64,000 nucleotides of DNA from Collinsella sp. An7 (GTDB lineage: Bacteria; Actinomycetota; Coriobacteriia; Coriobacteriales; Coriobacteriaceae). Positions within the stretch are counted from its first letter, which is position 1, and each line of letters begins with the position of its first letter. Location: contig NZ_NFHP01000005.1 in assembly GCF_002159335.1 (NCBI RefSeq), positions 62,001 through 126,000 on the forward strand, written 5' to 3'. The notes below the pieces were generated by a model that made no database searches, was not told the DNA's origin, and saw nothing but the letters and a program-made list of their open reading frames with translations. Positions 6,096-60,395 of the stretch are shown here, one piece after another. Both the position numbers and the translations under genes were made by a program.

Positions 6096-6169
6096 GCGGA
6101 GCTCCTCTGAGTCGGCGGAAATGTTCTCGCCATGATACCCCACGACATGTGACGGGGTGGGCAAGACAA

Positions 6170-6206
6170 AATGGGTCAAACGGAACACGTCCCCAACTGA
6201 CCCATT
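6170..6206. repeat. R-family hairpin repeat (GTCA...GGGGACGTG core)
   Basis: A 37-bp element with ends AATGGGTCA and TGACCCATT and an internal block ACACGTCCCC. Other copies are at 18672-18704, 18842-18878, 35470-35505 and 35717-35753, with an expanded form at 29404-29481. The orientation here is opposite to the 18.7-18.9 kb copies. It lies between proB and pncB. Confidence 0.85.
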
Positions 6207-6336
6207 CAGCCGCGATGTACGGCTCGCTGAGGTGCGCCAGATCGGCCTGAAAGAGGAGGGAGCACGCCTTGCGTGCGGCGACCGACGATTGAAGGCCGAG
6301 GTGGCGTGCCTCAGCGGGCCGATCAGGTCAAGAAAC

Positions 6337-18671: not shown

Positions 18672-18704
18672 TGGGTCATTTGGGGACGTGTTCCGTGTGA
18701 CCCA
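18672..18704. repeat. R-family hairpin repeat
   Basis: TGGGTCA...TGACCCA ends around TTTGGGGACGTGTTCC, 17 bp after trpS. Same orientation as the copy at 18842-18878; the two bracket a third, unrelated-looking long hairpin. Confidence 0.85.
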
Positions 18705-18740
18705 TTTTGAGGGCGGACGGTCCGCTTTGTCGCCAGAAAA

Positions 18741-18828
18741 AGTTAGGTACCCGGCCATTACACCAGCGGCAAATCGTGGGTGATTTTGCACCCGATTTGA
18801 CGCTCATGTAATGACCGGGTACCTAACT
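18741..18828. repeat. 88-bp long-arm inverted repeat
   Basis: Outer arms (GTTAGGTACCCGG...) of about 22 bp have one mismatch. They continue into a second paired section (AAATCG..GGGTG / GCACCC..ATTTG), so nearly the whole element folds as one hairpin. There is no T-run. Located between two R repeats in the 18656-18980 gap, which has no gene. Confidence 0.8.
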
Positions 18829-18841
18829 ATCAGGGTGGGAG

Positions 18842-18878
18842 AATGGGTCATTTGGGGACGTGTTCCATCTGACCCATT
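18842..18878. repeat. R-family hairpin repeat
   Basis: AATGGGTCA...TGACCCATT ends around TTTGGGGACGTGTTCC. A direct copy of the 18672-18704 element, upstream of the HAD phosphatase gene. Confidence 0.85.
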
Positions 18879-18980
18879 TCGCTCGGCAGGCGCCTTGGAT
18901 TTTGCCGTGAGGTCCATCCCTGCCCCACTTCTCCCTATACTGATGGGTGACGTTGAACCCCCTTTTGAAAGGACGCTTTG

Positions 18981-27872: not shown

Positions 27873-28097
27873 GGGCACGCTCCCGGCTGACCGGGTTCCC
27901 GGCGCAAAACGACGCGGCAGCGGCGCAAGGTCTGGCGTGCGCAAAGACGCGGGCAGCGGCGCATCAGGAGCGCGTAAGGGATGCGGCCGCGTGTCGCGCC
28001 CGCACGTTGCCCCACCAGCCCCAACGCTACAATGGTGCTCATCTGCCGGACGTGCGGACGCATGCCCGTCCGGTGCACCCAACCCGAGAGGACACCC

Positions 28098-29360
28098 ATG
28101 AAGGTTCTACCGTTCCCCTGCATTCGCCCCGTGCCCGAGCGGGCCGCGGAGGTCGCTGCACTCCCCTACGACGTCTTCGATCGTGCGGAGGCCGCCGCCT
28201 ACGTGAGCGAGCACCCGCTCTCCTTCCTCGGCATCGATCGCCCCGAGACCCAGTTTGCGCCCGAGCAGGACATGTACGCGCCCGAGGTCTACGCGCGCGG
28301 CGCCGAGCTTCTGCAGGAGCGCATCGACGAGGGTATCTACCAAGAAGACCCCTCCATGAGCTACTTCCTGTACGAGCTCACCCAAGATGGGCGCACCCAG
28401 ACGGGCGTGGTCGGGGTCTGCTCGGTGGCCGACTACGACGCGGGCACCATCAAGCGCCACGAGAACACCCGTGCCGAGAAGGAGCGCGACCGCATCGAGC
28501 ACATCCGCGCACTCGGCTGCCAGACGGGGCCGATCTTTCTGACCTACCGCGACGAGCCGGTGCTCTCCTTTATCCTCGCCACGGTCAAGAGCGGCTCGCC
28601 CCTCTACGACTTCACCGACGAGGAGGGCGTGCGCCAGCGCGTCTGGGAGGTGCGCCGCCCCGAGAGCGTCGACGCCATCCGCGAGATGTTCGGGCGCGTC
28701 CCCTGCGCCTACATCGCCGACGGGCACCACCGCGCCGCCTCGGCCATGCGCGTGGCGCACGAGATGCGCGCCGCGGCCGAGGAGGCCGGCACCTACACCG
28801 GCAAGGAGCCCTTCAACTACTTCCTCGCGGTGCTCTTTCCCGCAAGCGAGCTCACCATCCTCCCCTACAACCGCGTCGTGGCGGACCGTGCGGGCCGCTC
28901 CGTCGAGGAGCTGCTCGCCGAGGTGAGGGACGCGGGGTTTGAGGTTGCCGAGGTCGAGGGCGCCATCGAGCCCGCCGTACCCGGCGAGATGGGCATGTTC
29001 ACCGGCGGGCACTGGCACCGCCTTGCGCTGGGCCCCGAGCTTGCCGAGGCGGTGCGTGAAGCCGACCCCGTGAGCGCGCTCGACGTGTCCGTGCTCCAAG
29101 ACCGCATACTCGGCCCCATCCTCCAGATCGACGACCCGCGCGAGGACCCGCGCATCGCCTTTGTGGGCGGCATCCGCGGCACCGAAGAGCTCGAGCGCCG
29201 CGCCGGAACGGAAGGCGTTGCCTTCTCCATGCATGCCACGGGCATCGACCAGCTGCTCGCCGTAGCCGACGCCGGTCTCCTCATGCCGCCCAAATCAACC
29301 TGGTTTGAGCCCAAACTGAGAAGCGGCCTCTTCATCCACCGCATCGCCCCCAAGGCCTAA
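28098..29360 (+). CDS. DUF1015 family protein in serine cluster
   Basis: A 420-residue protein of the DUF1015 (COG4198) family, cytosolic by sequence. It begins KVLPFPCIRPVPERAAEVAALPYDV and has conserved-looking IKRHENTRAEKERDRIEHI (about residue 120) and CAYIADGHHRAASAM (about 205), where a DGHHR motif resembles ParB/sulfiredoxin-like nucleotide-using folds. ATG 28098 has GAGAGGA upstream. As I recall, DUF1015 genes often accompany serC-serA in anaerobes, implying a role in serine metabolism; no SerB phosphatase is seen here. A separate promoter is possible (TACAAT at 28028-28033). Confidence 0.8.
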   Translation: MKVLPFPCIRPVPERAAEVAALPYDVFDRAEAAAYVSEHPLSFLGIDRPETQFAPEQDMYAPEVYARGAELLQERIDEGIYQEDPSMSYFLYELTQDGRTQTGVVGVCSVADYDAGTIKRHENTRAEKERDRIEHIRALGCQTGPIFLTYRDEPVLSFILATVKSGSPLYDFTDEEGVRQRVWEVRRPESVDAIREMFGRVPCAYIADGHHRAASAMRVAHEMRAAAEEAGTYTGKEPFNYFLAVLFPASELTILPYNRVVADRAGRSVEELLAEVRDAGFEVAEVEGAIEPAVPGEMGMFTGGHWHRLALGPELAEAVREADPVSALDVSVLQDRILGPILQIDDPREDPRIAFVGGIRGTEELERRAGTEGVAFSMHATGIDQLLAVADAGLLMPPKSTWFEPKLRSGLFIHRIAPKA

Positions 29361-29403: not shown

Positions 29404-29481
29404 ATGGGCCAGTTGGGGACGTGCCCGTCCTGCACCATTTTTGAAAATGGTGCAGGACGGGCACGTCCCCAACTGACCCAT
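29404..29481. repeat. Expanded R-family element, near-perfect 78-bp hairpin
   Basis: ATGGG..CAGTTGGGGACGTG followed by CCCGTCCTGCACC and then the complement of both, with one mismatch over about 37-bp arms. Between convergent DUF1015 and ugpB genes; it may also stop transcription. Confidence 0.85.
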
Positions 29482-29610: not shown

Positions 29611-29738
29611 CGGGGGTTAAACGGCGAGGGGCCGGCTGTACCTGAAGCGTGTTTCCCGCAGGCGATTTCATCGGCACGATGAAATCGCCGAGGACCACAC
29701 GCGAAAGGTACTGCCGGCCCCTCGCCGTTTAACCCCCG
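29611..29738. repeat. S-family structured element inside a 33-bp inverted repeat
   Basis: Outer arms of 33 bp (CGGGGGTTAAACGGCGAGGG...) have one mismatch. Inside lie GCGTG and CACGC, then conserved strands TTTCCCGCAGG (29652-29662) and CCGAGGACCAC (29688-29698) around a perfect 13-bp stem with loop GCA. A second copy with other arms and another inner stem is at 37048-37165. It fills the 29482-29756 gap, next to the ugpB 3' end. Confidence 0.8.
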
Positions 29739-29756: not shown

Positions 29757-31085
29757 TTACGCAACCCCTGCGTTGGCGCTCTCGATCGCCGAGTTCGTGG
29801 AGTTCACCGCCGTCTCGATGGCCGCATCCACGTCGCCGCCGTTAAAGACCGACTCGAGCGCAGTCTCGAGGTCGGTGCGCAGCTGCGGGAGCTGCGAGCA
29901 GAGGGGGCCTGCGGTGATGTTGTTCACCTTGGAGTTGCGCAGCTGGTTGGCCGAAACCTCGAGCTGCGGGTACTCGGTGTAGATCTTGGAGAGCGTGTCG
30001 GTCTCGTAGGCGCCGGTGCTGATCGGGAAGTATCCGGTATCGCCCGCCCAGGTGGCCTGAACGTCGGCCGAGGTGGCGTAGGCGCAGAACTCCATCACGC
30101 CGCGTGCCACGTCATCCGAAAGCCCCGCCGAGATGCAGAGCGCGCCGCCACCGGCGTAGATGCCCTCGGCCTCCGTACCCTCCGACACGGGCAGAAAGCC
30201 GATCGAGACCTCAAAGTCAGCCGCGTCGATGATCTGGCGCGCCGTGGCCGAGGTGTCGATGTAGATGGCGCACTGGCGCTGCGAAAAGCCGCTGATCGCA
30301 TCGTCCTCGGAGCTGAAGGGCGTGAGCTGCCCCGCATCGTTGAGCGACTTGACCCAGTCGAAGAGCACCTTAATCTGATCCTGGTAGGCAACCTCGGTGC
30401 AGCGCTCCTTACGGCCGTTCTCGTTGTTGACCACGTACCCGCCCATGTTGGTGACCATCTGGTCCATAGCGTAGCCGTAGGCAAAGAGCCCGACCGGCGT
30501 CACGTCGCTCGCGGCGGCGATCTGCTCGGCCGCGGCGGTGAGCCCCTCAAAGGTGGTCGGGAGCTCCGTCACGCCCGCCTCGGTGAGCACGTCCTGGTTG
30601 TAGTAGACAACCGGGCAGGAGGAGTTGAACGGCATCGCGTACATCGAGCTGTCGTAGGTGTAGAAGTTCACGGCCTGCTCGAGGAGGTCGGAATCGTCGA
30701 AGTCGGTCTGCTCGATGAGGTCGGAGACGTTGGCGACGAGCCCGGAGTCGATCATCGACTGCAGGTTCTGCTCACCGATCTGCACGATCGCCGGAGCGCC
30801 CGAGCCGCCGGCCATGTTGAAGAAGCTACCAGTGGACTCATCGTAGCTGCCCTGGTACTCGGACTGCACCTCAAACTCGTCGGACTGCTCGTTGAAGCCG
30901 TCGACGATCTTCTGGAGGGCGTCACCGCGCGAGCCGTCCATGGAGTTCCACAGCAGGATGACGGTCTTGCCGTTCTCGGTGGTTGTGGTGTCGCCACCGC
31001 CCGAGCAGCCGGCGAGCGCCGTGGCCGCCAGGCCGAGACCGGCCAGCGAGAGGAAGGAGCGACGGGAGAGATTGGTTGCTTTCAT
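29757..31085 (-). CDS. ugpB: ABC transporter solute-binding lipoprotein, UgpB type
   Basis: A 442-residue extracellular binding protein for sn-glycerol-3-phosphate or glycerophosphodiesters (inferred). The signal peptide combines a twin-arginine-like SRRSFLSLAG with a lipobox LAGC at about residue 26, so the protein is membrane-anchored outside the cell. Family features: LLWNSMDGSRG and PFNSSCPVVYYNQDVL, close to the UgpB ligand site. ATG 31085 follows AAAGGAA by six bases. Last gene of a five-gene operon. Confidence 0.88.
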   Translation of the reverse strand: MKATNLSRRSFLSLAGLGLAATALAGCSGGGDTTTTENGKTVILLWNSMDGSRGDALQKIVDGFNEQSDEFEVQSEYQGSYDESTGSFFNMAGGSGAPAIVQIGEQNLQSMIDSGLVANVSDLIEQTDFDDSDLLEQAVNFYTYDSSMYAMPFNSSCPVVYYNQDVLTEAGVTELPTTFEGLTAAAEQIAAASDVTPVGLFAYGYAMDQMVTNMGGYVVNNENGRKERCTEVAYQDQIKVLFDWVKSLNDAGQLTPFSSEDDAISGFSQRQCAIYIDTSATARQIIDAADFEVSIGFLPVSEGTEAEGIYAGGGALCISAGLSDDVARGVMEFCAYATSADVQATWAGDTGYFPISTGAYETDTLSKIYTEYPQLEVSANQLRNSKVNNITAGPLCSQLPQLRTDLETALESVFNGGDVDAAIETAVNSTNSAIESANAGVA

Positions 31086-31136
31086 GCATGTTCCTTTCTG
31101 TGTCTGGTATACCGAGCGCATGCGGAGGGCCGGGCG

Positions 31137-35286: not shown

Positions 35287-35717
35287 GCCGCAGTTTCGCA
35301 CCTAAGGTGGCGTTGCGGCCGCCTTAGGTAACAAAACGCGGCAACGGTGAGCGTACCGTCCATGGCTGCCGCATTTTGTAACCTAAGGCCGCGTTTGAGC
35401 CCTCTTGGATGACAATCTGCGGCAACGACGATTTAGCTGCTCACCGCTACCGCAGTTTCGCACCTAAGTATGGGTCAAACGGAGCACGTCCCCAAATGAC
35501 CCATTGACGATCTGCGGCGCAATAGAGGCGCATCTGTGCATTGCACCGCAGATTGTCAATCGAACCGCGCTGTCGCGTCCCTTGTTTGACAATCTGCAGT
35601 AGAACAAAATCGGCGCGCCGAATGTTGCCGCAGATAGTCAATCGGAGCACCACGACGGCCCGTTTATTTGACAAACTGCAGCAGAACCGAAGCGCCGCTT
35701 GCCAATGCCGCACACCA
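35287..35717. repeat. P-family array: tandem ~81-bp hairpin units
   Basis: Units begin with (G/A)CCGCA at 35287, 35368, 35449, 35545, 35627 and 35707 (spacings 81, 81, 96, 82, 80). Each has a hairpin with arms like GCCGCAGATTGTCAA and TTGACAATCTGCGGC, then a spacer of about 25 bp. Loops and spacers differ between units while the arms stay paired. In the third unit and at the truncated sixth an R-family element is inserted. Confidence 0.8.
35470..35505. repeat. R-family element inside a P unit
   Basis: ATGGGTCA...TGACCCATT with GCACGTCCCC inside, placed in the loop of the third P hairpin, whose arms lie on either side (CCGCAGTTTCGCACC left, TGACGATCTGCGG right). Confidence 0.85.
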
Positions 35718-35753
35718 ATGGGTCAAACGGAACACGTCCCCAAATGACCCATT
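35717..35753. repeat. R-family element abutting a stop codon
   Basis: AATGGGTCA...TGACCCATT with ACACGTCCCC. Its last two bases are part of the stop codon (TAA, minus strand 35752-35754) of the exporter gene. It also truncates the sixth P unit. Confidence 0.85.
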
Positions 35754-37047: not shown

Positions 37048-37165
37048 GGGCCGTCGGAGCGTCCGCCGCGTACCCCGCAGCGAGTTTCCCGCAGGTCGTT
37101 CGAGCAAAGCTCGAACGACCGAGGACCACGAGCAAAAGGATGCCCACGCGCCGCATCGACGGCCC
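37048..37165. repeat. S-family structured element (second copy)
   Basis: Outer arms GGGCCGTCG (37048-37056) and CGACGGCCC (37157-37165) are complementary. Conserved strands TTTCCCGCAGG and CCGAGGACCAC flank a perfect 11-bp inner stem (GTCGTTCGAGC) with loop AAA. All paired parts differ from the copy at 29611-29738. It ends 31 bp before the exonuclease gene and fills most of the 36814-37196 gap; a -10-like TACAAT lies at 36999-37004. Confidence 0.75.
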
Positions 37166-37196
37166 GATCAGGGCAGCAACGACGAAAGGATCCCCC

Positions 37197-38168
37197 TTGA
37201 AGGTCCAGGACGCACTCGACTACGCGAACTCCTACTACTTCCCCGAGCTCATCTTTGGCAGCGGCTACGAGGTCATGGAAGCCGAGCGTCAAAAGGGCGA
37301 GGACGCCATGAAGACCCTCGACACCGACTGGCGCGCGGCAGACGAGCCCGCCTACTCCTACGACCTGGTGCGCGAGCTCGGCGACCGCAACCGCGCCCTC
37401 TGCGACGCCATCGGCGAGGCGCGCCTGCGCAACGTCTCGAGCGGCTTTCTCTCACGCAGCCTCTCCGACGACGACCTCTGCGCAGGCATCGGCGCCATCC
37501 AGAAGCGCTCGGCGGCCTCGGTTGCCCGCGAGGTCCGCGGCGACCGCAACGCCTACGCCGTCGCCTACGTGCGCAAGCCCATCAAGGGCACCATCCTCGG
37601 CATCGACATCGAGACCACCGGCACCGCGCCCGAGCGCGGCTACATCCTCAACGTCGGCTGGGAACTCATGGACCTTACGAGCGATGCCGTCCCGCGCGAC
37701 GGGCAGGCGGAGTTCTTTGGCATCCCCGAAGACCCGTACAAGACCGCCGGCGTGCCGCTCGAGAACATCCACCACATCACCTGGGCTGACATCGAGGGTA
37801 AGACGCCCTTCCGCGAGAACAAGAAGCTCCAGGCCCAGCTCCTCAAGCTCATGAAGCGCTACCCCATCATGGCGCACAACGCGGCGTTTGAGGACTCGTG
37901 GTTCATGCTGCACCTCGACGGATACGCCGAGGCGCGCCGCGAGGGAAAGATCGCGGTCGTGGACTCGCGTGACATCTGCCGCAAGCTCGACAGCGAGGTT
38001 GCGTCGCTACCCCGCGAGTCGGCGCCGGCGAGCCTCGAGAATTGGGCGCGCCGCCGCGGTACGCTCTCGGCCGACGAGGCGGAGCAGCACCTCGGCCTCG
38101 ACGACACCGACCTCATGCTCCGCACGGTGCAGGCCGAGTTCAACCTTAAGAACATGTTTGCCAAATAG
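37197..38168 (+). CDS. DnaQ-like 3'-5' exonuclease domain protein
   Basis: A 323-residue protein with a C-terminal DEDD exonuclease. ExoI motif GIDIETTG lies near residue 130, ExoII around PIMAHNAAFEDSWFM (about 220) and ExoIII in HLGLDDTDLML (about 305), where the usual His/Tyr-x4-Asp is less clear. The N-terminal 120 residues are a domain I do not recognise. Start TTG 37197 is preferred because GAAAGGA lies six bases before it; the ATG at 37140 sits directly on an S-family repeat with no spaced ribosome site. Confidence 0.75.
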   Translation: MKVQDALDYANSYYFPELIFGSGYEVMEAERQKGEDAMKTLDTDWRAADEPAYSYDLVRELGDRNRALCDAIGEARLRNVSSGFLSRSLSDDDLCAGIGAIQKRSAASVAREVRGDRNAYAVAYVRKPIKGTILGIDIETTGTAPERGYILNVGWELMDLTSDAVPRDGQAEFFGIPEDPYKTAGVPLENIHHITWADIEGKTPFRENKKLQAQLLKLMKRYPIMAHNAAFEDSWFMLHLDGYAEARREGKIAVVDSRDICRKLDSEVASLPRESAPASLENWARRRGTLSADEAEQHLGLDDTDLMLRTVQAEFNLKNMFAK

Positions 38169-38174
38169 CATGTA

Positions 38175-38226
38175 ACAGTGGGGACAGGTTGATTTGTCAC
38201 GTGACAGACCAACCTGTCCCCATTGT
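38175..38226. repeat. Q-family hairpin (GTGGGGACAGGTTG), upstream copy
   Basis: Arms ACAGTGGGGACAGGTTG..TTGTCA and TGACAG..CAACCTGTCCCCATTGT pair with three mismatches over 25 bp. It lies just before the deacetylase start; a second copy follows that gene. Confidence 0.85.
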
Positions 38227-38245
38227 CAGCGGGATGGAGACGACC

Positions 38246-39643: not shown

Positions 39644-39668
39644 CCGCAGCCGCGGGGCGCCGCATGGC

Positions 39669-39718
39669 AAAGGGAACAGGTTGAATTGTCACGCGTCAAC
39701 ATAACCTGTCCCCATTGT
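39669..39718. repeat. Q-family hairpin, downstream copy
   Basis: AAGGGAACAGGTTGAATTGTCA and TGTCAAC..AACCTGTCCCCATT-type arms, less perfect than the copy at 38175-38226. It starts 26 bp after the deacetylase stop. Confidence 0.75.
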
Positions 39719-52848: not shown

Positions 52849-52935
52849 GGCGGGCAGGGGCGGGACCCCGTTTCTCCTTCGCTCATGCGACAAGCGAAAT
52901 CGCTCAGGAGAAACGGGGTCCCGCCCCTGCCCGCC
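52849..52935. repeat. Perfect 30-bp inverted repeat
   Basis: Arms GGCGGGCAGGGGCGGGACCC... at 52849-52878 and 52906-52935 are fully complementary over 30 bp, with a 27-nt loop that has a small stem of its own. There is no T-run. It lies between the convergent ATPase and ybaK genes. Confidence 0.85.
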
Positions 52936-60313: not shown

Positions 60314-60395
60314 GTGTCACTGGGGGACGGGTGCAAGCTGCGCCATGGGCGCCCGTGCCCCCATGGCGCAGTTTGCACCCGTCCCCCAGTGACAC
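60314..60395. repeat. L-family hairpin, 5' side of luxS
   Basis: Arms GTGTCACTGGGGGACGGGTG and its complement, extended inward by GCGCCATGGG / CCCATGGCGC. Nearly perfect over about 35 bp. It lies 54 bp upstream of luxS. Confidence 0.85.

Follow-up and report, generated by a model that had tools for sequence, protein, structure and literature searches.

What is being conserved in a hairpin whose stems are rewritten from copy to copy, and is it read as RNA or as DNA? The question arises at two sites in the window, the 64,000-nucleotide stretch of Collinsella sp. An7 DNA analyzed here. At both sites, as the initial annotation had noticed, the strands TTTCCCGCAGG and CCGAGGACCAC are identical. 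It had also described the surrounding stems as different yet perfectly paired, which holds for the inner hairpins but not for the outer arms: those of copy 1 (42 nt) are 90% complementary, and those of copy 2, the more imperfect pair, contain a tandem G.A step and mismatches. Copy 1 is assigned here to the minus strand since the adjoining mRNA lies on that strand, whereas the plus strand had been used before. The features are as follows.

29611..29738, minus strand: copy 1, whole hairpin, an inverted repeat (model match 81.3 bits, E 4.4e-20)
29634-29715: covariance-model span of copy 1
29611..29642: 5' arm of the outer helix P1 of copy 1, an inverted repeat with its partner arm at 29707-29738
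29647..29702: middle helix P2 of copy 1, GCGTGT (29647-29652) pairing with ACACGC (29697-29702)
29652..29662, plus strand: invariant strand TTTCCCGCAGG of copy 1, identical in 6 of 6 exact genome copies
29661..29689: variable inner hairpin P3 of copy 1, 13 bp with the loop GCA at 29674-29676; P3 covaries across the family
29688..29698, plus strand: invariant strand CCGAGGACCAC of copy 1, identical in 6 of 6 exact genome copies
29757..31121, minus strand: host gene of copy 1, an extracellular solute-binding protein (ugpB-like; SBP_bac_8, 4.5e-36)
37048..37165, plus strand: copy 2, whole hairpin (model match 72.8 bits, E 1.4e-17)
37067-37146: covariance-model span of copy 2
37085..37095, plus strand: invariant strand TTTCCCGCAGG of copy 2, as in the exact genome copies
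37119..37129, plus strand: invariant strand CCGAGGACCAC of copy 2, as in the exact genome copies
37140..38168, plus strand: open reading frame 3' of copy 2, exonuclease-like by eye (GIDIETTG)

The model match of copy 1 ends 41 nt from the stop codon of its ugpB-like host gene, and the earlier view that this copy is not a simple leader was right. Unlike copy 1, copy 2 does occupy a 5' leader, in the orientation first chosen for the family. The reading frame 3' of copy 2 likely has its true start near 37190, with a GAAAGGA box followed by TTG; it matches nothing in Pfam at E<=1e-8 or in NCBIfam at E<=1e-20.

Both copies belong to a large, previously unlisted palindrome family in gut Coriobacteriia. 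The exact pattern TTTCCCGCAGG-N{8,38}-CCGAGGACCAC occurs at 6 sites in the source genome and at none in a reversed control, so its recurrence is not due to chance, and it is present in 4 of 9 genomes of the genus. When the pattern was loosened and structure ignored, about 180 stretches were retrieved from two large collections; none has a paired hairpin, as expected of chance matches, whereas all 11 genus copies do. The initial annotation had proposed a covariance-model search and had made its claim depend on further copies with paired, differing stems. Such copies were found: 18 in the source genome (E<=0.1), others in 8 of 9 genus members, where the number per genome ranges from 0 to 18, and further ones in other genera of the family, which brings the total for Coriobacteriaceae plus sporadic relatives to over 100. 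In wider searches, 48 of the 301 genomes sampled from the order and 50 of the 400 sampled from the class contained copies, and there were sporadic occurrences in another class of the same phylum; these counts cover copies that retain core and fold, degenerate ones being missed by the search. A loose search for the core with a paired P3 returned 86 distinct sites as against 0-2 for scrambled cores, a contrast that shows core specificity only, since the loci had been preselected for the element. A known RNA family could be rejected. In the Rfam comparison proposed alongside the model search (Rfam 15), cmscan was run on the entire window at gathering thresholds and on 11 loci at relaxed E. No family, Collinsella-1 (RF01700) included, matched the element at or near gathering; tRNAs alone reached gathering, and the remaining matches were sub-threshold, mostly miRNA models on long hairpins. 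A search of the available literature found no published description of the family.

The fixed part of the element is an internal bubble. In the orientation of the initial annotation the near-invariant core reads TTCC(C)GCAG...CGAGGAC(C), which on the mRNA strand becomes GUCCUCG-hairpin-CUGCGGA. Alignment columns C28, C30, G104, A105 and G106 are invariant in essentially all of 97 copies, although this invariance is not fully independent of a search model that favors conserved cores. All three helices, by comparison, vary with compensation. P1 and P3 have a different sequence in almost every copy, P3 can be as short as about 3 bp or longer than 20 bp, P2 either covaries or is replaced by tandem G.A in other family copies, and the hairpin as a whole measures about 65-130 nt. 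Changes on both sides were seen in 27 of 28 pairs among 59 copies and in 26 of 27 among 98; in the larger set 94.0% of cells are paired, versus 60.3% when shuffled and 25-50% when slid. The covariation reported from two copies, likened there to that of structured RNAs, is thereby borne out at large scale. G.U and A.C mismatches are nearly equally rare (26 vs 31 in the first set, 55 vs 38 in the larger), entire hairpins are copied, and the interior can be inverted between orthologues, so that covariation alone is no proof of a functional RNA. Indeed, template switching in replication would also yield paired, differing stems.

With genes called by our own script, a six-frame codon model, 90 of the 103 distinct copies follow a stop codon at a distance of 5-70 nt (median 29) and are reverse-complemented relative to the initial annotation, the mRNA strand thus usually being the opposite of the one it had chosen. 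Another 5-7 copies, copy 2 of the window among them, sit in 5' leaders in the original orientation, about 4 are found at 3' ends in that same orientation, and 4 fall within coding sequence or lack an assignment. Of 90 cases, 26 have a T tract (at least 3 T in the first 6 nt past the stem) on the mRNA strand and 4 have one on the mirror strand; the remaining tails are weak and TGCGTTT-like, or missing. This asymmetry is terminator-like and favors the gene strand. The following gene has the same orientation in 70 of 88 cases, which identifies most copies as mRNA ends rather than shared bidirectional terminators. The host genes are functionally unrelated: ugpB-like, pepT, LCP, pheT, htpG, fhs, ftsX, oppF and Ca-ATPase genes, as well as nrdD, thiC, groEL, rplX, dnaK, pnp, aldolase, pta and argS. 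Such diversity, together with the placement past stop codons, excludes a riboswitch or other cis-regulatory leader. Placement is retained across genera 3' of fhs, Ca-ATPase and ftsX; six genomes from outside the family have the element 3' of dnaK. At these dnaK loci (L323, L324, L326, L328, L329 and L335) it lies 28-35 nt past the stop codon and, where the grpE frame is called that far, overlaps the start of grpE and encodes part of the GrpE N-terminal tail.

The best reading of these observations is a new terminator-associated palindromic repeat family. In its fuller form, to which we give a probability of roughly 0.45, the dispersed structured repeat is the 3'-end hairpin of mRNAs or the upper part of it. 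A transcript would then run from the stop codon through about 30 nt into the outer stem, the internal loop, GUCCUCG, the variable hairpin, CUGCGGA and the return strands, with a hairpin base that often resembles an intrinsic terminator and ends in a short U tract. The base of the stem may aid the end of transcription and block 3' decay, and the near-invariant bubble could serve as a docking or cutting site for a putative trans-acting factor at the mRNA 3' end, for instance an RNase III-like nuclease or a 3'-end binding protein. The arms would be kept matched by template switching and selection acting together. As judged from sequence, a function as RNA is likely. One orientation dominates even though the interior can be inverted, which suggests that orientation matters.

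Two known kinds of RNA signal come close to such an element. Intrinsic (Rho-independent) terminators likewise place a stem past the stop codon, but their stems are short and lack a conserved internal loop, whereas here the hairpins are long and have a near-invariant core. The T7 R1.1 kind of RNase III signal is a long, irregular hairpin interrupted by an internal loop and placed between cistrons or at 3' sites, which the present element appears to resemble; such signals are not known, however, to have one invariant bubble in common over dozens of unrelated genes. Several observations argue against the 3'-end reading. The near equality of G.U and A.C is unlike typical RNA families. G.A mismatches exceed T.C by 63 to 9 when counted on the strand of the initial annotation, which favors folding of that strand, although much of the excess stems from P2 variants common to related copies. 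RNA folding energies are neutral between the strands. A clear T tract is present in only about 30% of copies, several copies lie in 5' leaders or coding sequence, and some close relatives lack the element at the orthologous 3' ends, where plain terminators or other, unrelated hairpins stand instead.

The main competitor, which we regard as less likely, is a mobile palindrome of the non-autonomous kind (REP-, MITE- or RPE-like). A nuclease or transposase would recognize the bubble-containing fold of a single DNA strand and copy the hairpin to new sites, gene 3' ends would be tolerated or targeted insertion sites, and terminator activity would be a by-product. The two readings are not mutually exclusive. 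Mobility would fit the variable copy number within one genus, the concentration of G.A mismatches on one strand and the slightly better DNA folding of that strand (74 vs 31). It would also fit duplicates confined to the hairpin (one of 84 bp at 98% in G007, one of 80 bp at 87.5% in G006, and two near-identical copies in G441) and the repeated units of G060 and G062. Beside the Ca-ATPase gene, two inverted elements bound a 6.8-kb segment that is present in G006 (L420) and absent in G003 (L421). In-frame copies occur in MurJ, HypF, TrpA and GrpE. The MurJ copy of the source genome (L254:2546-2626), with arms of more than 30 bp, lies in the N-terminal tail of the protein, and three readable genus orthologues have shorter tails without the element; at MurJ and at c23 the flanks are too diverged to call a clean empty site. 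Such in-frame copies recall the Rickettsia palindromic elements, which PMC10969869 describes as about 150 bp long and in frame within genes; unlike those elements, coding copies are here a small minority, the stems vary and most copies lie past stop codons. The same paper names a dispersed repeat that resembles a terminator. That repeat belongs to a different phylum, and the passages on it make no mention of an invariant bubble with covarying arms, the comparison being one of descriptions.

REP, BIME and REPIN elements with their TnpA-REP (RAYT) are the other obvious precedent, being short dispersed palindromes often found 3' of genes. E. coli TnpA-REP recognizes an imperfect folded hairpin (PMC8266576), and REP copies have a common stem sequence and a GTAG/CGTC-type tag (PMC3733652). 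In the present family the stems differ in almost every copy and the bubble alone is fixed, so that the copies have no palindrome sequence in common. No partner transposase turned up either: the Y1 (HUH) transposase Y1_Tnp does not follow copy number, as it is missing from G004, which has copies, and present in G001 and G002, which have 0-1. Movement of a REP by a Y1 transposase is therefore not supported. As for MITEs, copies limited to the hairpin are seen, but neither a target-site duplication nor an autonomous partner was found. Old copies, moreover, retain structure and position across genera, and the fixed orientation relative to stop codons demands an extra target rule of any mobile element.

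A second alternative holds that the stems are paired solely through mutation, by template switching within palindromes, and that the hairpins are ordinary terminators with an inherited core and no bound factor. Template switching is known to homogenize inverted-repeat arms and to invert spacers (PMC8604942, PMC8794818), and that signature is recognizable here: near-identical orthologues show concerted P3 changes, and the interior is cleanly inverted between homologous flanks at the ftsX 3' ends of G004 and G005 and, at an esterase-like gene, in G003 and G007 as against G006. The balance of G.U and A.C agrees with it as well. Template switching thus explains the homogenized arms and inverted spacers, but the same process should have erased the asymmetric bubble too, whereas C28, C30 and G104-A105-G106 persist, which implies that the bubble is under selection or repeatedly acquired. 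The retained asymmetric bubble and the strong orientation bias go beyond template switching and point to selection or a targeting rule; a purely mutational origin is improbable.

Least credible is a functional RNA on the strand of the initial annotation, either sense (in leaders) or antisense to the 3' end of the host gene, with a protein-binding motif built from GNA/GAA, tandem G.A and a G.A-bulged C-A.G loop. Each of the three irregular regions admits a reading as a sheared G.A element on that strand, in keeping with the G.A excess, and the leader copies have the required sense, yet the terminator tail sits on the other strand and promoters are not enriched in that direction (TATAAT-like sites 7 vs 6 in 90 regions), which also rejects an antisense RNA with its own promoter.

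Returning to the 3'-end hairpin, it seems possible, if somewhat short of an even chance, that a dedicated protein recognizes the GUCCUCG/CUGCGGA bubble, either in RNA, at the 3' ends of transcripts, or in folded single-stranded DNA. This would amount to a new Coriobacteriia system of structured repeat plus enzyme in which the signal consists entirely of the bubble, with stem sequence free to vary. A repeat family conserved in its internal loop rather than in its palindrome is the reverse of REPs, and more than 100 compensated hairpins constitute a natural set for asking which of the two, template switching or selection on RNA, maintains stem pairing. Should the bubble prove to be a site of binding or of nuclease action, it would be a 3'-end signal common to housekeeping genes in a major gut lineage for which there are few genetic tools.

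The window holds other palindromes as well. Directly 3' of the convergent gene at 27981-29360 lies a near-perfect 38-nt palindrome (29404-29481, TTGGGGACGTGCCC...GGGCACGTCCCCAA), whose relatives at 6167-6207, 18672-18879 and 35463-35753 form a REP-like family (TGGGTCA...GGGGACGTG). A repeated palindrome, GGGGACAGGTTGATTTGTCACG...CAACCTGTCCCC, follows the copy-2 gene (38175-38228) and the next gene (39665-39718). Long inverted repeats at 52849-52935 (perfect arms of 30 nt) and 60314-60395 (39 nt, 95% complementary) are not members of the bubble-hairpin family. Outside the window, 3' of fhs in G004 and G005 (L379, L380), another long hairpin combines a conserved apex, AGCATGTGCTKCGYAGAATGC, with differing outer stems, and is perhaps a second family of the same design.
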